Below, one piece after another: positions 11,505 to 21,254 of a stretch of 64,000 bases of DNA (its first letter is position 1; each line of letters begins with the position of its first letter). The stretch covers positions 100,909 to 164,908 of the forward strand of contig NZ_BEWO01000007.1 of NCBI RefSeq assembly GCF_002723975.1, read 5' to 3'. The stretch comes from Gluconobacter japonicus. Its GTDB lineage: Bacteria > Pseudomonadota > Alphaproteobacteria > Acetobacterales > Acetobacteraceae. Position numbers and translations under genes: made by a program. The notes under the pieces were generated by a model that saw only the letters and a list, made by a program, of their open reading frames with translations, ran no database searches and had not been told where the DNA came from.

Positions 11505-11899
11505 CGCTTTATCCTCGCGTGTGCGGGGAACACCCAGCCAGGTGAAGCGTGTTCACGACAGTAGCCGGTTCATCCCCGCGTGTGCGGGGAACACCCCACT
11601 CAGAGAGAAACTTGTCCTTGATGCGGCGGTTCATCCCCGCATGTGCGGGGAACACGAGACCGCAGCCTGTTTGATATAGTTGGGTTCCGGTTCATCCCCG
11701 CATGTGCGGGGAACACCCCGAGTCTCATTATCAAGAGAAGTGAAACGCCGGTTCATCCCCGCATGTGCGGGGAACACAGTCAAACGTTACGCCTAAACTC
11801 GGCATTGTTCGGTTCATCCCCGCATGTGCGGGGAACACGTTTTCGGCCCAACAGGTAACGGTAAATCCGTCGGTTCATCCCCGCATGTGCGGGGAACAC
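11505..11899 (-). CRISPR. type I-E CRISPR array, 7 repeats and 6 spacers
   Basis: Seven 29-base repeats at 11505-11533, 11566-11594, 11627-11655, 11688-11716, 11749-11777, 11810-11838 and 11871-11899, separated by six spacers of exactly 32 bases. On the minus strand each repeat begins GTGTTCCCCGC, has a CCCCGC/GCGGGG stem and ends GATGAACCG, the classical type I-E form. Repeats 1 and 2 (lowest coordinates) read CGTG in the loop where the others read CATG. The repeat at 11505-11533 has three further changes and is the degenerate, leader-distal end. The leader and cas2 lie at the other end, so new spacers would be added near 11899. Confidence 0.98.
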
Positions 11900-11970: not shown

Positions 11971-13246
<1,276 letters not shown>

Positions 13247-13252
13247 GATGTC

Positions 13253-13972
13253 TTACCAGGCCCGCCGGATGAGCATCAGGCCGCAGCCGAAGCTCTTGGC
13301 TCGTCCGAGGCCATTGCGCAGGCTGGTCAGAAAAAGCTCAGGGTCTGTGACGGTCAGGATGCCTTCGAACTCCATGACGCCAAAGGTTGCAGGTTTCTGC
13401 TGAAGCGTTCGGGGGATGACAACGGTATCGTAGCTGTCCACCCGTGGAGGGACGGGAAGCGAGAAGCCTCTCTCCTGCGCCTGGCGTGTGAGCCATGCTG
13501 CGCCAGCGTCCTGAACAAGGGCGAGGCGGGCTTCGGCGCGCAGGGTTGATTTGCCACTTTCTGATGGTTGTTTGCCAGGAATATGGTGCAGCGCATCCAT
13601 GACAACATCATGTCGCTTGCCCCGCTTCTGACCGGGGAGAGCACGGCTGATGGTGGCGTTGGCACGGAGTCTGAACTCTAACTGATCGCCGGGGCGCAGA
13701 TTGGGTTCAAACGGTCGGGGTTCGTCGATTTCGAACAGGCCGTGTGGGTCTGCGGGTGGACGTTCGGACAGGATATAGAAGTTGCCCGGCTCCTCCTGTC
13801 TCCACAAAAAATCCCTGTTTCGCTCGGGGGTGTCTCCGAACAACGCCCAGATTAAGTGATGTCCGCTTTTGATCTGGGCGCTGGCGTCGTGTGGCAGGAG
13901 AAGGCTGGACAGGGCCGAAAGCGCCTGACTGTCCCGCCTCAGACGTGCCCGGGAGAGGTAGAGCGACATCAC
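13253..13972 (-). CDS. cas6e: type I-E pre-crRNA endonuclease Cas6e
   Basis: Cascade subunit that binds the repeat hairpin, cuts at its 3' base and stays on the crRNA. It starts MMSLYLSRARLRRD, the family-typical N-terminal strand, and has a glycine-rich C-terminal region, GLGRAKSFGCGLML, used in RNA binding. A histidine in the HHLIWALFGD segment is placed like the catalytic histidine of E. coli CasE. At 239 residues it is slightly longer than CasE. It overlaps cas5e by 4 bases. Confidence 0.95.
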   Translation of the reverse strand: MMSLYLSRARLRRDSQALSALSSLLLPHDASAQIKSGHHLIWALFGDTPERNRDFLWRQEEPGNFYILSERPPADPHGLFEIDEPRPFEPNLRPGDQLEFRLRANATISRALPGQKRGKRHDVVMDALHHIPGKQPSESGKSTLRAEARLALVQDAGAAWLTRQAQERGFSLPVPPRVDSYDTVVIPRTLQQKPATFGVMEFEGILTVTDPELFLTSLRNGLGRAKSFGCGLMLIRRAW

Positions 13973-14829
13973 AGAACCGGTACCGTCATGACGGCCTCCT
14001 CTCTCAGGTCAAACTGCCAGCGGGTTCGGGAGCGTGGCTGGTCTCTGCGGAAGACGGTCTGGACGGTGTCATCAGGCGCGCCATGGGTTTCGGCATCCTG
14101 TTGATCCATGACGATCATGTGCCGCATTGTGTGTTCGGGGTTCTGGTCCGGCGTGGTTGCAAGGCGATCCCACTCAGCCCAGTGCCTGCGGTTCGGAGCC
14201 GTTCGGGCCAGTGCATGACGCAGGGTTGTGCTTTCCTGAGGCGCTGTTGGGGAAGAAGATGAACGTCCGATCGACACTCTGCTTTCAGGGCCATGCCGAT
14301 AGCGGTCGCGCAGTGCGGAAACGGCAGTGTCATGGCTCTGGAGGTCAGGAGCCAGGGGCAGACCAAGCGGGCAGGATTTGCGCCCCAGATATGGTGTGAA
14401 AGCCGGTTCATGCATGGCCTGTGCCAGAGTTTCCAAAGACCATGGGGGTGTTTCGCTGCGTTGCCACAGGGCGCCGAGATGCCAGCTTCCGGCCCTGTAG
14501 TCCCGTCGGGAGAGCGTTGTATTCAGGTCTGAGACCGCAAGTTCCTGAGCGCGGGTGTAAAAGCGCGTATTCCGCTGGGCGGATGGCATCTGGGCCGTGT
14601 GGAAGTCCGTCAGCAACTGGCCGGGAGCGTGGCAGAGAAGCGCCAGACCGTAATCGCGCGCCAGATCGTCCTGGCGGAGGTCTTCCCGCGTCAGGCCCAG
14701 GCAGGCGGCGACCAGTCCCAGAACAGCCGAGCGAGCCGGGCGATCAAACCCGTCCCGCCGTTCCCCGACTGCCACGCCGCCAAAGGCTGAGAGCGGCGCA
14801 ACGAGGGCGAAGGTCAGATAGCGTGGCAT
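13969..14829 (-). CDS. cas5e: type I-E Cascade subunit Cas5e
   Basis: Cascade subunit that caps the 5' handle of the crRNA. It begins MPRYLTFALVAPLSAFGGVAVGERR, matching the Cas5 opening strand and the glycine loop, and has the family segment PSRSAVLGLVAACLG as a local variant (RPARSAVLGL). Length 286 exceeds E. coli CasD (224); the extra residues lie in a polar, serine-rich region near residues 190-230. The cas7e stop lies 5 bases upstream. Confidence 0.94.
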   Translation of the reverse strand: MPRYLTFALVAPLSAFGGVAVGERRDGFDRPARSAVLGLVAACLGLTREDLRQDDLARDYGLALLCHAPGQLLTDFHTAQMPSAQRNTRFYTRAQELAVSDLNTTLSRRDYRAGSWHLGALWQRSETPPWSLETLAQAMHEPAFTPYLGRKSCPLGLPLAPDLQSHDTAVSALRDRYRHGPESRVSIGRSSSSPTAPQESTTLRHALARTAPNRRHWAEWDRLATTPDQNPEHTMRHMIVMDQQDAETHGAPDDTVQTVFRRDQPRSRTRWQFDLREEAVMTVPVL

Positions 14830-14834
14830 GAAAG

Positions 14835-15884
14835 TCAGGCCTTCTGCGCGAAGGTGACGATCTCTTCCAGTGTTCCATCGCCGCCCAGTACCAGCTCAGC
14901 CTGTGCGTCAGAACCGGGGCCGTAAGCCTTGTTGAGTTGATCCCGGAAAGTTTTGAGTTGGGCGATGGAAGCGCCCACGATGTCTGTGCCGGTGACTGGC
15001 TGGGCGAAGGCCCCAGCCAGTGTGCGCGGCTGCTGGTTGCCTTTTTCAGCCAGAATGTAATGGGCGCGGGCATGGGCGGCGAAGCTGTTCTGTTTGCCGC
15101 TGGGGGCGACGGTTGCGGCTGCTCGTGTCAGAGCGCCGAGCGTGGCGGCGGCGAGTGTGCCATCGTCTTCTTCGCCAAGATTGGTCTTCAGAAGATCCCT
15201 GTTGATGCACAGATACAGGTAGAACACACCTGACCCGAACCCGGCTTCACCCAGAAAGCCTGCGCCTGCATCTTCGGAGGACGTCTTCAGATCATCAACG
15301 GCGGTATAGTAGTCGTCTTCAATGGAGACTTTGTGCGTTGTGATGGCGTGAGCCACCTGCGCTGCGGCTTCGCGATTGAAGGAAGGATTGTCTGCCAGCA
15401 TACGCCCGAAGAGGGCGATGTCTGCGGCGGTATCAGCCCGCAGGAGCACGGAGGCTGCTTCTTTCTTTGGGTCGATCTTTTCACCACCCGCCATGCGATC
15501 TGCCAGTTCCAGAGCGGCTGCCTTCTCACGAGGGGAAATGAAGGCAAGCTGTTCGATCGCGGTTGAAGTTTCTTCCTTTTTGAGTTTGCCGAAGATACTT
15601 GCGACTTCACGGGCAATCTTGGTGGCTTTTTTAGTGTCCTGACCTGCTGCAATCAGATGATCCAGAATGTCCTGTCCCATGCGCTGGGTGCGCTTGCCAA
15701 GATGGTGTTCAAGCGTTGCTTCAAAGGCTTCAGAAGTCCGCCATGCACGCTTGAGGGCTTGTGAAGACAGTCGAAGCCTGTTGGCTCCCCCGACCATGGC
15801 CGTCTTGGGGCGGCCCAGATCATCCCGGTTCAGGTTGGACGGGGGGAAGAACGTCAGAAGGTGAAGCTGAAGAAAACGGCTCAT
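14835..15884 (-). CDS. cas7e: type I-E Cascade backbone subunit Cas7e (CasC)
   Basis: Six copies form the helical backbone of Cascade along the spacer. The N-terminus reads FLQLHLLTFFPPSNLNRDDLGRPK, the typical Cas7e opening, followed by RLSSQALKRAWRTS. The thumb-region and C-terminal segments LAGAFAQPV and FYLYLCIN also fit. Length 349 is close to E. coli CasC (363). It is separated from cse2 by 11 bases and from cas5e by 5. Confidence 0.96.
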   Translation of the reverse strand: MSRFLQLHLLTFFPPSNLNRDDLGRPKTAMVGGANRLRLSSQALKRAWRTSEAFEATLEHHLGKRTQRMGQDILDHLIAAGQDTKKATKIAREVASIFGKLKKEETSTAIEQLAFISPREKAAALELADRMAGGEKIDPKKEAASVLLRADTAADIALFGRMLADNPSFNREAAAQVAHAITTHKVSIEDDYYTAVDDLKTSSEDAGAGFLGEAGFGSGVFYLYLCINRDLLKTNLGEEDDGTLAAATLGALTRAAATVAPSGKQNSFAAHARAHYILAEKGNQQPRTLAGAFAQPVTGTDIVGASIAQLKTFRDQLNKAYGPGSDAQAELVLGGDGTLEEIVTFAQKA

Positions 15885-15895
15885 GGGAAATGTCC

Positions 15896-16504
15896 TTATC
15901 GGGCGTCGGCGGGAAGGGCGGAGAGGGGATTCTGAGAGCCAATGCCCCAGTAGTCATGCACCCAGCGGGTGCGGATACGGTCTGCGGCGGCATCTTCTGC
16001 CGGCCAGCGAAGAAGGGAGTGTGCCAGATCGCGGATGTTGAGCGGTGCGTTGGCCAGGCGCACAAGGCGGCGGAAAGCTGTCAGACACTCTTCTGGATCG
16101 CGGGTTTCCAGCAGCTTTTCCAATCGATTGGGTTTGAATCTTGCGGAGGTTGCCACTTCATTCGGGGAGCCGCCGAAGTCTGTTGGTCCGACTTCCCGGG
16201 CAACGGCATTTCGAAAAGCCTTTTGGCCGTCCGGTGCTTTTGGCGTGGGTGTTTCTGTCCGAACATGCGCGAGCACGCCCATCGTGAGAGCCAGCGCGGG
16301 CAACTCCTCGGGGGACGGAGCGGTTGGGAACTGACGCACCAGAGAGGCGAACGCGGGTTCCATCATGATATCCCAGACAGAGCCGCATCGCCGCAGGCGC
16401 GCGCTAACGGCGCGCCGACCACCCGTTTGAAGATCAGGATTGGTCGGATACAGGTCTCGCCACCATGTCACGAAGGTTTCGGTTGTTTCCTTATCAAGAC
16501 GCAT
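15896..16504 (-). CDS. cse2: type I-E Cascade small subunit Cse2 (CasB)
   Basis: Two copies normally form the belly of Cascade and stabilise the R-loop. The protein starts MRLDKETTETFVTWWRDL, has RRAVSARLRRCGS as the arginine-rich helix, and ends with LAHSLLRWPAEDAA. Length 202 is normal. It overlaps cse1 by 11 bases, indicating translational coupling. Confidence 0.94.
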   Translation of the reverse strand: MRLDKETTETFVTWWRDLYPTNPDLQTGGRRAVSARLRRCGSVWDIMMEPAFASLVRQFPTAPSPEELPALALTMGVLAHVRTETPTPKAPDGQKAFRNAVAREVGPTDFGGSPNEVATSARFKPNRLEKLLETRDPEECLTAFRRLVRLANAPLNIRDLAHSLLRWPAEDAAADRIRTRWVHDYWGIGSQNPLSALPADAR

Positions 16505-18122
16505 GGTTTGTCCCGTTCTTTTTGGGGGCTTTGGGCGGAAGCGGCTGCTTCAGGAACTCGAAAAGCTGCTTCCCGTCTTTGGAGTGTCCGTACAGGGTGC
16601 TGATGAGCCAGCGACGGCCGTTCCCAATCTGAATACATTCCTGAATGTCCGTATCCGGCGTAGCGGGAGCGTATTCGTCAAACAGATCCAGCGCGACACG
16701 ACGGAGATCTGCCAACCAGTCATGGCAGGTCTGGTCCTGTGCCGCTGTCGGGTTCTGGCTGTATTGGGTCAGATGCTCGAAAAATGCTGGTTCCGTGCGG
16801 TTCCAGAACTCTTCGCGCAGGCAGGTGAAAAGAGACGCATCCAATTTGACCGTCGCTCCTGCCGAGAACAGAGCAGCGCGTACGGTTGAGCGAAGGGTAT
16901 CGGCCACGAGGGTGGAGGCCTGAACAAGCCTGCGTGCCATGTCGTCAACGAGGAGTTGGTCTTCAGGCGTGGCGGCCCGGGGGAGAGGAAAATGGCTTTC
17001 GGCAAAGCTGCGGAGCTTCATGTTGTCGAAATCTGCGCCGCCCGCGAAAAAGCGATCCATCGGGCGGGGAGTGTCGCCATCGTCCAGATCTGGCTGGCGG
17101 TCATTGATCCAGGTGCGGATGGCTGGCGCTTCAAAAGATGTTTCTGTCGGGACCACTAATCCAAGCCAGTGCCGGTACCGAATGCCGCCCGGTTGCGGAT
17201 GCTGGAACAGGAGTTCCTTGTCCTTCCCCGGACGGTAGGTTGGCGTCAGGGGGTGACGGGGCGCCCAGTAGTTGTAGTTGGCGCCATAAGGGCGCTGACA
17301 CCACCCTGTTGCCTGAACGTCGTCCGGCTCATCCGTGATGTCACACCGGGCATTGGGTTGCTCTTCAAAATTGAACCGGATCCGACGTGGCATTCCCCAC
17401 CAGGCCTGTAAGGGGTGCGCATTCAGGTCTGGAAGGATTTCAAGGTTTTTCTCTGAGGTCAGCGTTGGGACCAGCCAAGGGAAAACTTTGGGCAGATCTG
17501 CTTCGCTGGGTGGAGTGCCCAGTGGCACGTTGGCCCAGCACCGATGCCAAAGCGCGTCATGGTCGGATGGGGTTACGAATGTGATAAGGGGGCCTCCTCC
17601 GCGAAGGCCGGTCCGGTTTCCTTTGCCGCCTGAGGGGGCCCAGGACTGCATGGTGTAGAGCGCTATGGCTGCTGCTGGACGCCCCATGCGCTGCACGCGG
17701 TTTCTATGGTTGAGAAGATCCATGTTCTTCTTGATCGTCTGCTCGCCGGGGGCTTCGAACAGAAGGCGCTCAATGGGTTCGCTACCATTTGAGAGGGGCT
17801 CGAAATCCTGGAGGAAACGGGGGCCAGAACCATCCAGATTGAAGGCTTTCCGCATAGGCTCAAATGCGGCTTCCAAGTCCTCCGGTGTGGGAGGGGTGCG
17901 CCAGAGAGTACGCCATTTCCGTTCAGTGGCGGGCGGGAAAGCCGTTGCCAATAGCCCGATCAGGAATTCGATACTGGCAATCTGGAAGTCAACGCGGGGC
18001 CAATCGAAGTCAACAACTGGATCGGTCTCAATATTTTCGACAATCTGGGAAGGACGGATAATCTCCGTCTTTTCGGATCTTCGTCGGATTGGAATCCAGG
18101 ATGTTTTTATCAAATCAAACAT
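16494..18122 (-). CDS. cse1: type I-E Cascade large subunit Cse1 (CasA/Cas8e)
   Basis: Recognises the PAM, opens the target duplex and recruits Cas3. At 542 residues it is slightly longer than E. coli CasA (502). It begins MFDLIKTSWIPIRRRSEK and contains family segments FPPATERKW, GPRFLQDF and WGMPRRIRF. Its ATG directly follows the TAA of the small membrane protein gene, reading TAAATG, so it is almost certainly translated from the same message. Confidence 0.95.
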   Translation of the reverse strand: MFDLIKTSWIPIRRRSEKTEIIRPSQIVENIETDPVVDFDWPRVDFQIASIEFLIGLLATAFPPATERKWRTLWRTPPTPEDLEAAFEPMRKAFNLDGSGPRFLQDFEPLSNGSEPIERLLFEAPGEQTIKKNMDLLNHRNRVQRMGRPAAAIALYTMQSWAPSGGKGNRTGLRGGGPLITFVTPSDHDALWHRCWANVPLGTPPSEADLPKVFPWLVPTLTSEKNLEILPDLNAHPLQAWWGMPRRIRFNFEEQPNARCDITDEPDDVQATGWCQRPYGANYNYWAPRHPLTPTYRPGKDKELLFQHPQPGGIRYRHWLGLVVPTETSFEAPAIRTWINDRQPDLDDGDTPRPMDRFFAGGADFDNMKLRSFAESHFPLPRAATPEDQLLVDDMARRLVQASTLVADTLRSTVRAALFSAGATVKLDASLFTCLREEFWNRTEPAFFEHLTQYSQNPTAAQDQTCHDWLADLRRVALDLFDEYAPATPDTDIQECIQIGNGRRWLISTLYGHSKDGKQLFEFLKQPLPPKAPKKNGTNHAS

Positions 18123-18368
18123 TTATGAAATTCCGTGAGTATGAAAAATTACGGAGATATTCGCGCTTATTTTGATAGTAGAAACATATGCTTCCAAAGC
18201 ATGGAAGGTCAGAAAGAGAATACTGATTGGGATTAGGATATAAAGCAAATGGAAGAGAGAATATTTTTGCGAAACAGGGGGTAAAGGCGTTAAGCTGGAT
18301 AGCGGCTTCCTTCCTGATCTTTCCTCTTGAAGGATGTGATGGAAGGTCGTTTCAGATGCGGGGTGCAT
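18123..18368 (-). CDS. small single-helix membrane protein heading the cse1 operon
   Basis: 81-residue frame starting at the ATG at 18368, with an AAGGAG ribosome binding site 5 bases upstream, better than the sites of most neighbours. The N-terminal half is polar; a strongly hydrophobic helix spans about residues 38-60 (LLYILIPISILFLTF). The tail is rich in serine, isoleucine and histidine. Codons are AT-richer than in the cas genes. The stop codon abuts the cse1 ATG. An upstream TTG (18455) would add 29 residues but lacks a ribosome binding site. It matches no Cas family I know. Size and topology would fit a membrane-acting toxin or a regulatory leader protein, but that is inference. Confidence 0.6.
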   Translation of the reverse strand: MHPASETTFHHILQEERSGRKPLSSLTPLPPVSQKYSLFHLLYILIPISILFLTFHALEAYVSTIKISANISVIFHTHGIS

Positions 18369-18477: not shown

Positions 18478-18500
18478 ATCCATGGTAGAAAATAGAACTT
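18478..18500 (-). promoter_or_regulatory. predicted Cascade target site (protospacer plus AAG PAM) in the cse1 operon leader
   Basis: On the minus strand, AAG (18500-18498) is followed by 20 bases (18497-18478) that match the first 20 bases of the mini-CRISPR spacer at 18 positions; mismatches fall at positions 9 and 15, and matching stops after position 20. Positions 1-8, the seed, match fully. The site is about 110 bases upstream of the small membrane protein gene, within an AT-rich stretch. I found no unambiguous -35/-10 pair there. Confidence 0.7.
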
Positions 18501-18501
18501 A

Positions 18502-18593
18502 AAAAATATCCCCGCTTTCGCGGGGAACGCGGGTTAAAGCACCTATCCAAGGTAGGAAATAGAACGGTTCATCCCCGCTTATGCGGGGAACAT
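18502..18593 (-). ncRNA. mini-CRISPR guide RNA gene (CreR/scaRNA/CreA-like)
   Basis: Repeat 1 (18593-18565) keeps the exact CCCCGC/GCGGGG stem and the GATGAACCG 3' end of the array repeat, differing only at the first base and in the loop (ATAA for ACAT). A 34-base spacer (18564-18531) follows. Repeat 2 (18530-18502) keeps the stem with a GAAA loop but has lost the handle and reads into ATATTTTTT, forming a terminator. Cas6e should therefore make a crRNA with a normal 5' handle. Repeat 1 overlaps the cas3 stop codon. Such single-spacer derivatives are known to guide Cascade to nearby promoters without cleavage; that role is inferred here from the adjacent matching target. Confidence 0.78.
18504..18530 (-). 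terminator. terminator formed by the degenerate second repeat of the mini-CRISPR
   Basis: On the minus strand CCCCGC-GAAA-GCGGGG is followed by ATATTTTTT: a 6-bp GC stem, a GNRA-type tetraloop and a T-tract. It would end the guide RNA and also block cas3 read-through into the cse1 operon. Confidence 0.75.
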
Positions 18594-21254
18594 TAACCCA
18601 GTGGCTTTATGATACTGGAGTCTCAAAGCATTGTCATCTTTGTCGCAGGCGGTCCCTTCAAATCCACCTTCCTCCGCCGCAAACAGAACAAGGACCAGAA
18701 TGTCGTTCACGGCCTCCCGCTCCCAGCGGGGCCAGCAGGCACGGGCGGTTTCAATGGCGGTTTGTAGGCCTTCCGGGGGAGAGCAGGATGTCAGGCGTCT
18801 GCGGGCCACGCGGATTTCAGAGAGTGCCCATGCCCGTGCGGGATCGTCGTCGTCTGCGTAAGGGCGAATGATGCCGTTTTTGAGAAGCGCAAGGCGGACC
18901 ACAACTGTTGGATCGGTTTCCAGTCGTGTGCGGGCCTGCAGGTCGGTATCCCATTGGCCTGTTCCGGGATCATAGGGCTCGCCCGTTTTCAGAACCGTCT
19001 GTCGTCCCAACCCCTGGGCGCCGATATTTTTGCCCTGCGTGGTGAGCATTTCTTTTTCAAGCGCAGCGGGAACGCTGTCAGGGGATGTTGAGTCTGCAAC
19101 CTCTTCAATGATCGGACGAACGTCTTCGGGGGTTCGGAGAATATTGCGTGAAAATAGCGCGCGAGCCGTGCGCCAGAGCAGGGCAGGATCTCGATAAACG
19201 GCCGCTGTTCCGGGCAGGACACGGCGGATCCAGTTTGCATCCGGATCCGAAACAGGGGGCGGGGAAATAATATCCAGTTGCGGGGAACTGAGGGGGCGAT
19301 TGCTGCGATGATGACGCCAGAGGCGCCCCGCTCTCTGGATCAGGAGATCAGCGGGGGCAAGGTCCGTAATGAGGGCATCAAAATCCACGTCCAGAGACTG
19401 TTCCAGGATTTGCGAAGAAACGAGAACGCCAGTCCTTTCTTCGGGGGACGACTGTTTGCCAAACTTCCGAAGAATGTCCTGCTCGATTGCAAGTCGGTCC
19501 ACCATGGCGAAACGGGCGTGGAACAGTTGAACTTTCACGCCTCTGGCACGAAGGGCTTCGGCACTTGCGATGGCGTCATCAACGGTATTGCGGATCCATG
19601 CAATGGCAGCGCCGGTGCTAGCGAGGTTCATAATACGGGCTTCAGCTTCGTCCGGGTCTGAAAGCCGGTTGATTGTAACGGTTCTGCCCAGCCCGGGACG
19701 TGGTTCACAGGGCGTTTCCATAGGGGGAGCGGTTGTCGAGACCAGTGTGGTCAGAGGGTAATGCGTGTCCTGCAGAGTCGTTCCGGGCAGACCCAGTCCT
19801 TTGCGGAATGCGTTCACCAGTGTGGTTCTGAGGGCATGGGACAGGGTTGCGGAGAGAAGGATGACTGAGCCGCCACGAGAGGCGTGAAGAGTCAGAAGTT
19901 CCTTCATTTCCTCAGTCATGTATGGGTCAAAGCTGTGAATTTCGTCACAGCACAGGATCTTGTTGCTTAGTCCCTGCCGTCGGACGGTCGTGTAACGGAC
20001 GGGCAGGACGGCCATGAGAGCCTGGTCGATGGTGCCGATACCGACCTGCGCCAGCAGCGCGCGCCGGTTCTCCGAGGCCAGCCATTCGGAACAGGCGGCC
20101 TCGCCGGGTTGCTTCTGATGCTCTGGCGTTGAAAAAGACGGTTTTTCCGAAAGGATTGTTTGCGTGAACCGCTCTGAAAGGCGGGCTTTTCCGTGTGCGA
20201 GCGCAAGGGATGGCCGATCCAGGGGATGAAACATTTTCCCGTATGCCGCAGCGACACGATCAAACATTGCATTGGCTGTTGCCATGGTTGGAAGAGCCAG
20301 AAAAAGTCCGCTGGCGTGGCCGCGTGCAATCAGCCGATGGGACAGAATCAGGGCCGCTTCCGTTTTGCCGCTCCCGGTCATGTCTTCAATGACGATGAGC
20401 GTTGGTCCATCAGGAAGTGGGACGGTTTCAGCCCAGTGCTGCAATGGGGAGAGGGCGTGCTTTTCGAGGTGGGGCAGAAGAGTCTTTGCTGTCTGGAAAG
20501 GCGTGGTGCGAACAGACCCAAGTCCTGCCTGTAGAACGGCCTTCTGGGCCTGGGGCAGGGCTTTGTTCCAGAAATAGGCGGAGGGGTCTTTCAGGTCCTG
20601 GGGGTTGATATAGGGAAACCATGTATGGTTTGAACCAATCCAGTCTGCTATCGGGAGATATTCCGCGAGGCGCCAGGCGAGACTGTCCATGGCTGCTTCC
20701 GTGATGTCTTCCGGGAAGGGGGGCGGCTGGAAAAGAGAGGCCATGACGGTCAGGAAGGATTGGGCTGCTTCCAGAGTTTTTTCTCCAAGAGACATCAGGT
20801 TTGCAGGACGTTGGTAGGCTCGGCTGACCGGTTTGCCATGATGACCGGCAACCCCTGTGAAAATCCGGAGTTTTTCCGTTACTGACCAGTCCGGGAAAAG
20901 GGTTCGCAACACGGGGTGAGTACTGAGTTGTCCCAGAAGCTGTAAGCCCGCAGCATCGTGTCGTGGACCTGGAGGGAGGGCGGCGGGAGTATGGCCAAGA
21001 GCTGCAGGCCAGAGGTCCGGGCGGAGGAACTGGAAGGTTGCTCCCAGTTTGCCGATGTCATGCAGGCTGGCGAGAAAGCCTAGAAGCCGCCGATCCAGAG
21101 GTTGATGATTGATAAGAGGGAGCATGCTTTCCGGCAGGCTAATCGCAACGGCTGCCACATCCAGGCAATGTGCGAGGACAGGATGCATGGGGTGGAGAGC
21201 CCCGGTTTGCATGTCTGTTTTGGCCCAGAACTGAGCCAGATCCGTCATATCCAT
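18579..21254 (-). CDS. cas3: type I-E CRISPR-associated helicase-nuclease Cas3
   Basis: Single-strand DNA translocase and nuclease recruited by Cascade to degrade targets. The N-terminal HD nuclease domain shows HCLDVAAVA and LHDIGKLG; the helicase follows with MTGSGKTEAALIL (Walker A) and CDEIHSFD (DExH-type box), and a helicase C domain with QILEQSLDVDFD and RAGRLWRH. Length 891 matches E. coli Cas3 (888). The last four codons (MFPA and stop) are encoded by the first repeat of the mini-CRISPR. It is transcribed divergently from the Smr gene; 456 bases separate it from cse1. Confidence 0.96.
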   Translation of the reverse strand: MDMTDLAQFWAKTDMQTGALHPMHPVLAHCLDVAAVAISLPESMLPLINHQPLDRRLLGFLASLHDIGKLGATFQFLRPDLWPAALGHTPAALPPGPRHDAAGLQLLGQLSTHPVLRTLFPDWSVTEKLRIFTGVAGHHGKPVSRAYQRPANLMSLGEKTLEAAQSFLTVMASLFQPPPFPEDITEAAMDSLAWRLAEYLPIADWIGSNHTWFPYINPQDLKDPSAYFWNKALPQAQKAVLQAGLGSVRTTPFQTAKTLLPHLEKHALSPLQHWAETVPLPDGPTLIVIEDMTGSGKTEAALILSHRLIARGHASGLFLALPTMATANAMFDRVAAAYGKMFHPLDRPSLALAHGKARLSERFTQTILSEKPSFSTPEHQKQPGEAACSEWLASENRRALLAQVGIGTIDQALMAVLPVRYTTVRRQGLSNKILCCDEIHSFDPYMTEEMKELLTLHASRGGSVILLSATLSHALRTTLVNAFRKGLGLPGTTLQDTHYPLTTLVSTTAPPMETPCEPRPGLGRTVTINRLSDPDEAEARIMNLASTGAAIAWIRNTVDDAIASAEALRARGVKVQLFHARFAMVDRLAIEQDILRKFGKQSSPEERTGVLVSSQILEQSLDVDFDALITDLAPADLLIQRAGRLWRHHRSNRPLSSPQLDIISPPPVSDPDANWIRRVLPGTAAVYRDPALLWRTARALFSRNILRTPEDVRPIIEEVADSTSPDSVPAALEKEMLTTQGKNIGAQGLGRQTVLKTGEPYDPGTGQWDTDLQARTRLETDPTVVVRLALLKNGIIRPYADDDDPARAWALSEIRVARRRLTSCSPPEGLQTAIETARACWPRWEREAVNDILVLVLFAAEEGGFEGTACDKDDNALRLQYHKATGLMFPA

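Follow-up and report, generated by a model that had tools for sequence, protein, structure and literature searches.

We report that the type I-E CRISPR-Cas locus of Gluconobacter japonicus carries, between cas3 and cse1, a crRNA-like guide gene together with its own target, and that related loci carry diverged versions of the same pair. Cascade loaded with the crRNA-like product is predicted from the sequence to repress the cse1-cas2 operon in the manner of CreR-type autorepression, a reading to which we assign a probability of roughly 0.85. Across relatives the guide has evolved in step with its site upstream of cse1, and the pairs fit the PAM and flipped-base rules of Cascade, which makes Cascade-guided repression by far the best reading of the locus. 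The relevant features of the window, by which we mean the whole 64,000-nt stretch of DNA analyzed, are the following:

18579-21254, minus strand: cas3 (Pfam), its 3' end overlapping psiR1
18637-18609, minus strand: promoter-like site ATGACA-17-TATCAT (10/12), inside the end of cas3 and upstream of psiR1
18593-18565, minus strand: psiR1, the first repeat, ATGTTCCCCGCATAAGCGGGGATGAACCG, 26/29 identity to the array repeat
18564-18531, minus strand: spacer, 34 nt, starting TTCTATTTCCTACCTTGGAT (array spacers are 32 nt)
18530-18502, minus strand: psiR2, the degenerate second repeat, 19/29 identity, stem kept
18500-18498, minus strand: target PAM AAG, on the 5' side of the target
18497-18478, minus strand: target (protospacer positions 1-20), starting TTCTATTTTCTACCATGGAT, in the leader of the cse1 operon
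18469-18441, minus strand: candidate cse1-operon promoter, -35 TTGCTT at 18469-18464 and -10 CACCTT at 18446-18441
18430-18391, minus strand: leader hairpin, arms 18430-18420 and 18401-18391, between the target and the leader ORF
18123-18368, minus strand: leader ORF, 81 codons, SD at 18379-18374, stop adjoining the cse1 ATG
16494-18122, minus strand: cse1 (cas8e; Pfam), first gene of the presumed regulated operon
15896-16504, minus strand: cse2 (Pfam)
14835-15884, minus strand: cas7e (Pfam)
13969-14829, minus strand: cas5e (Pfam)
13253-13972, minus strand: cas6e (Pfam), presumed processor of the guide
12284-13246, minus strand: cas1 (Pfam)
11980-12306, minus strand: cas2 (Pfam)
11566-11899, minus strand: CRISPR array, six pattern-matched repeats and five 32-nt spacers, with one more repeat-like copy visible downstream

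The unit stands apart from the array as a mini-CRISPR-like guide gene, and its repeat elements are usable: the 8-nt handle of psiR1 is intact (8/8 against the array repeat), and psiR2 keeps its stem while having lost its handle (2/8). The stop codon of cas3 (TAA, 18581-18579) falls within the psiR1 loop. We rejected the unit as an ordinary CRISPR array, given the degenerate, handle-less psiR2 and the spacer of 34 rather than 32 nt. Spacer and target share 18 of 20 bases, with full identity over positions 1-8 and mismatches at 9 and 15; similarity ends after position 20. The target sits 375-356 nt upstream of the cse1 start and has AAG on its 5' side, against CCG at the spacer's own locus. This arrangement had been pointed out in a preliminary description of the DNA, and each of its elements was reproduced. 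Within its own genome the target is the sole site without mismatch to AAGTTCTANTTNCTACC; only such a perfect match counts in this search, since at up to two mismatches six sites appear (target and spacer included) against 11 for a reversed control pattern. A search of plasmid records returned no match, nor did a search of Rfam.

In E. coli, according to the available part of one study (PMC5904413), an AAG with five seed pairs is enough for Cascade to bind, its affinity peaks with no more than 18 pairs, and interference calls for pairing that extends further; type I-E Cascade flips out each sixth base. Pairing that stops at about 17-20 bases is thus expected to give binding without cutting. As it happens, the window pair matches at the flipped positions 6, 12 and 18, and its mismatches at 9 and 15 fall at positions that should pair.

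The rules emerge from comparison with relatives. We collected 80 loci related by cas3, added 100 genomes (14 matching) and a further 397 genomes of the family (59 matching), searched the stretch behind cas3 for a repeat end, and compared the spacer with everything downstream, leaving the PAM out of the search; same-strand targets (19 loci) were chosen without the PAM and without positions 6 and 12. Duplicates were removed (L081, equal to the window, and L082, L083, L086, L100, L111, L112, L149, L150, L157 and L158), as were L102, from the same genus, L121, with a repeat-like string inside cas3, and L156, whose best site reaches 11/15 with PAM AAT. Among the 59 cas3-bearing family genomes, G233, G255, G262, G264, G267, G333 and G418 were excluded.

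Guide-target pairs with differing sequences were found in 22 Acetobacteraceae loci, the window included: the 19 same-strand loci, L104, L042/G251 and L152. Guide loci are a minority, and most scanned cas3 loci of the family are without a recognized guide. The PAM is AAG in 16, ATG in two and AAT in one of the 19 same-strand loci, and AAG in 16, ATG in four and AAT in one of the 21 pairs compared below; the AAT belongs to L115, which has mismatches at positions 1 and 3. The sites of L104 (opposite strand, ATG PAM) and L042/G251 (upstream of cse1, matching 1-5 and 7-11, ATG) were located after the first scan had failed for them (p=0.96 for the same-strand scan of L104 and p=0.89 for L042), the latter by eye. 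L104/G107 has the sole counted target on the opposite strand. In L042/G251 (N. maltaceti) cas3 and cse1 lie about 12 kb apart, and the cas3 reading of G251 has one internal stop. L152, from the genus Acetobacter, gives a further pair (shuffle p=0.001). Outside the family, 58 of 64 loci were scanned (L038, L039, L046, L075, L077 and L080 excluded), and seven of the 58, six of them distinct, carry a pair scoring 13/15 or more, in each case with AAG and with shuffle p-values of 0.001-0.002 for the six; they come from Hyphomicrobium MAGs, a Pseudomonadales assembly, Tropicimonas, Pseudogemmobacter, Actibacterium and an alphaproteobacterial MAG. Three weak further cases were left uncounted: L019 and L034 (12/15, AAG) and L037 (1-5 and 7-11, AAG).

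Spacer and target covary. The best downstream site of the window spacer scores 13/15 with positions 6 and 12 left out, a score equalled by 4 of 2000 shuffled spacers (p=0.0025) and by 0/20 spacers from relatives tested on the window region. In 18 of 19 loci the own spacer beats shuffled ones at p<=0.007, and in 18 of 19 it beats all 20 foreign spacers; L110 alone falls short (p=0.0645, with 2/20 foreign spacers equally good). Shuffled spacers, taken as the best of each scan, average 9-11/15 against 11-15 observed. Over 21 pairs, positions 1-17 minus 6 and 12 agree in 276 of 315 cells (88%), a figure that owes part of its height to the choice of targets by similarity outside 6 and 12, for which the shuffled-spacer scan controls. 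When targets were exchanged among loci the mean was 102.6 (s.d. 12.3, maximum 154), and none of 20000 shuffles reached 276. Positions 6 and 12 agree in 10 of 42 cells against 9.7 expected, which is the random level. Mismatches fall at position 6 in 14/21 pairs and at position 12 in 18/21, together 32/42, against 39/315 at the other positions (Fisher 1.5e-17, a value that is not exact because the loci share ancestry). One or both of 6 and 12 are mismatched in 19 of the 21 pairs, the exceptions being the window and L002.

Comparisons within narrower groups tell the same story. The genome is Gluconobacter-like, and its cas3 shares 82% identity with the G. thailandicus gene; the own pairs of the two loci agree at 18 and 13 of 20 positions against 8 and 10 when crossed, and five positions (8, 10, 13, 16 and 17) are compensated. 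Among six loci whose guides start with TCTTG, 45 of 60 further cells agree against 27.5 when swapped (p=0.0016). The preliminary description had proposed comparing the region in other Acetobacteraceae, and there spacer and target do covary (276/315 against 103 swapped).

Around this pair, transcription signals are less regular. The candidate cse1-operon promoter was positioned by eye and by analogy with relatives and has a poor consensus; a sigma-70 scan of the window region found no promoter at the target, and a -35 search across the loci did not select the TTGCTT of the window. Among the loci the best -35 string varies in position: TTGAC occurs at protospacer positions 25-38, inside or beside the footprint, in 6 of the 19 and at 55-66 in three, and elsewhere the string is poorer. 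The promoter-like site at 18637-18609 could possibly serve as the guide's own promoter, at a frequency of such sites in the region (two against 1.1 expected by chance) that is not above chance. It doubles as cas3 coding sequence, and its promoter likeness may be coincidence. The psiR2 hairpin with its T-run (18526-18509 and tail) is terminator-like, with seven pairs, and is the longest of three stems in the region. The cas3 stop lies inside the guide repeat in 18 of 21 loci (the exceptions being L004, L103 and L042), often as the TGA of the handle. The leader hairpin at 18430-18391 (GGTGGCTCAGC...GCTGAACCACC) also occurs in G. thailandicus, with one mismatch in the window and none there; the folding z-score of the stretch is -1.4 in the window against -3.7 in G. 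thailandicus.

From these elements we propose the following course of events. Transcription of the guide would either run on from cas3, whose message would then carry it at the tail, or start at a small promoter inside the cas3 end, and the psiR2 stem with its T-run would end the transcript. Cas6e would cut both repeat stems, yielding a crRNA-like guide RNA with a predicted start of ATGAACCGTTCTATTT, and this RNA would guide Cascade to the AAG-flanked site. With pairing confined to about 17-20 bases, Cascade would occupy the site without licensing Cas3, so that it would be blocked, not cut. Array crRNAs competing for Cascade, or loss or inhibition of Cascade, would release the operon. In some relatives the first frame from the released promoter would be a CreT-like mini-ORF, and there the switch may therefore also be an addiction module.

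The preliminary description had Cascade repress both the cse1-cas2 operon and a small membrane protein encoded in its leader. The first part gains from covariation, PAM and flipped bases; the second gained no such support. The 81-codon frame has a hydrophobic stretch (KD19 2.15) and occupies the slot of the relatives' CreT-like mini-ORF, but its dN/dS of about 1 (0.21/0.22 by NG86, 0.27/0.16 by ML) leaves the membrane protein unproven. Changes are spread over codon positions as 14/17/14; the dN/dS values are 0.11/0.94 in cas3 and 0.05/0.51 in a 1350-nt part of cse1. In favor of a selected protein are the start codon preceded by an SD and a frame still open at unchanged length despite 45 changes (chance 0.098). 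Pfam returned no match to the frame, and a protein search matched three entries: the window itself, P0002 (81 aa) and a 53-aa hypothetical protein of G. oxydans H24. We therefore set the small membrane protein aside as a settled gene. The low synonymous rate suggests a constraint on the nucleotide sequence, possibly as RNA or by coupling into cse1.

The kind of circuit described here is already known: the preliminary description put it forward as undescribed for this locus, and both type I-E CreR and a type I-E CreTA are in print. In the available parts of two reviews (PMC13131331, PMC12737573), CreRs autorepress type I-B, I-E and V-A systems through partial complementarity to the promoter, and the present locus resembles them in its limited, PAM-flanked complementarity upstream of its own cas operon. 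It differs in that the guide overlaps the cas3 stop in most of its loci, that repression is predicted from sequence, and that some relatives have a CreT-like mini-ORF in the controlled leader. The CRISPR-repressed toxin of Citrobacter rodentium, as excerpted (PMC12055562), is closer in layout, with a type I-E system, the cas3-casA gap, a crRNA-like guide, a partial PAM-flanked target and an RBS-led ORF behind it; there, however, CreA lies on the strand opposite the ORF, whereas guide and leader ORF are co-directional here, and a 96-bp ORF that contains no rare codons serves as the toxin, its toxicity shown by experiment, whereas here a toxin is putative. The Acinetobacter CreTA, in the available part of its report (PMC10097628), likewise sits in a cas3-csy1 gap with an SD and a short ORF behind the CreA target, but is of type I-F with another mini-ORF that is divergent from creA.

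Haloarchaeal type I-B CreTA, as given in excerpts of PMC8501985, resembles the present loci in that bases 1-5 and 7-11 pair and 6 and 12 are left free, in its two degenerate repeats and in a mini-ORF with tandem AGA or AUA; in H. hubeiense the module lies directly upstream of the cas operon, and mutation of base 6 or 12 of CreA is tolerated. It differs in being archaeal I-B with a TTC PAM, and in ORFs of four to six codons with the tandem codons nearer the start (same excerpts). New here are the placement, the fusion with the cas3 stop, a covariation that spans the lineage and, in relatives, a mini-ORF within the cas leader. In the portions of the literature consulted we met no counterpart for a cas3 stop inside a guide repeat, for an SD-led mini-ORF behind the target in a cas leader or its AGA-AGA form, or for the count of such mini-ORFs in guide-free leaders (0/28). 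Titles and abstract beginnings held nothing on this unit in Acetobacteraceae, a statement that leaves room for such cases in the primary CreR paper; the available parts of CRISPR surveys of Acetobacter and Bombella (PMC11270541, PMC12282179), searched with few terms, likewise held nothing on it.

In many relatives the stretch from target to cse1 follows one plan: a hairpin, an SD, a very short frame, often a second hairpin, then cse1. Folding z-scores of 15 leaders (mononucleotide shuffles) run from -1.0 to -6.3 before the frame and from -0.8 to -5.5 after its start, the window having -1.4 and -1.3. An automatic count found an SD-preceded short frame in 12 of 20 guide leaders against 2.8 in shuffles; a recount of SD-led mini-ORFs in the slot behind the target gave 9/20, dropping the window (42-codon TTG frame), L076 (TTG AAG) and L118 (29-codon frame). 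The slot frames of L076, L110, L116 and L118 stand outside the 9/20, with a weaker SD or a stop beyond the leader end; incomplete loci and those without a recognized cse1 motif are excluded from leader counts, and L042 and L152 from the mini-ORF count. Five of the 20 guide leaders (L002, L084, L088, L103 and L104) have AGA AGA at codons 7-8, a tandem found in none of 200 shuffled leader sets. These five mini-ORFs are CreT-like, of the form M-[WRQ]-x-x-x-x-(AGA AGA), and lie between hairpin and cse1; in L104/G107 the frame is extended to 53 codons. Other slot frames have CGG AGA (L118, L120), ATA ATA (L076) or a single AGA (L005, L110). AGA is a rare codon, with a frequency of 0-8 per 1000 across eleven samples, all of them small and crude. 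Very short SD-preceded frames also occur behind the target (M-K-stop in L136 and, by eye, MQTLRV in L045 and MIKMPS in L070); these could be minigenes.

Such frames allow a reading in which the leader toxin is the key regulated product and the guide its antitoxin, so that Cascade failure arrests the cell: the mini-ORF of relatives would tie up a rare arginine tRNA, and the hydrophobic 81-codon frame would have replaced it in Gluconobacter. We regard this as possible, at rather less than even odds. A crRNA-like guide and a partial PAM-flanked target upstream of whatever lies downstream are present, and 9 of 20 guide leaders carry an SD-led mini-ORF against none of 28 guide-free ones, with the tandem of rare AGA codons in five. 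The combination of SD, AUG or GUG, tandem AGA and stem-loop is what CreT of H. hispanica needs (PMC8501985, in the part available), and the C. rodentium module in the same gap, a type I-E CreTA, depends on translation of its ORF (PMC12055562, as excerpted). Despite 45 substitutions the G. thailandicus counterpart of the window frame has stayed open at equal length (chance 0.098), and P0002 is a third 81-aa homolog. Against this, the window is without a tandem-AGA mini-ORF and its frame evolves at dN/dS near 1. L004, L006, L105 and, by eye, L152 have a guide without a mini-ORF, so that a toxin is not required for the guide to persist. Most guide-free leaders, moreover, are much shorter: a length of 200 nt is attained by 7 of 28 of them and by 19 of 20 leaders with a guide, so that part of the 9/20 versus 0/28 contrast is length. 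The one-way pattern, with no mini-ORF found without a guide among these 28, is predicted by toxin-antitoxin logic and also by leader length.

Less probable, and in our judgment unlikely, is a regulatory leader peptide that, in addition to repression by Cascade, tunes cas expression through stalling at rare codons or coupling into cse1. Many of the 15 folded leaders have a hairpin ahead of the mini-ORF and, as judged by eye, another behind it, which is consistent with such a peptide, as is the window ORF, whose stop adjoins the cse1 start; yet in the five loci with AGA AGA a distance of 86-133 nt separates the end of the mini-ORF from the cse1 motif, and a literature search met no cas attenuator.

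CRISPR acquisition, too, prefers AAG-flanked DNA, so the spacer might once have been taken from neighboring DNA and be decaying without function. We reject such a relic as very improbable: covariation over 21 loci contradicts it, decay would not keep 88% agreement at the paired positions with 6 and 12 at random, and the short spacers of L002 and L007, about 20-23 nt by eye, are not what a decaying full-length copy would leave. Chance likeness of two AT-rich stretches, for which one could cite the four shuffled window spacers, is barely credible and was rejected, since locus-by-locus shuffles, foreign spacers and the 21-pair permutation all speak against it and covariation that spares 6 and 12 is to be expected solely where Cascade reads guide and target.

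Beyond Cascade-guided repression itself, we tentatively suggest, as a conjecture more doubtful than not, that acetic acid bacteria and their kin have one Cascade-repressed promoter and one message that encodes a CreT-like, tRNA-sequestering mini-ORF followed by cse1-cas2, with the guide welded into the cas3 stop. CreTA and CreR would be two states of this circuit, the toxin being lost first and, in Gluconobacter, replaced by the hydrophobic 81-residue frame. If so, loss of Cascade would free both the toxin and the genes that restore Cascade, and lineages that shed the toxin first would retain a pure CreR.

Taken together, our findings describe a natural experiment on Cascade-guided gene control, in which 21 diverged pairs conserve the paired positions and leave 6 and 12 free, so that evolution itself displays the limited pairing that accompanies repression as opposed to cutting. 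CreR-like and CreTA-like features are joined in one type of locus, and the family allows toxin loss, guide retention and guide loss to be compared. Several of the hosts are food-fermentation bacteria, so that tests are straightforward.
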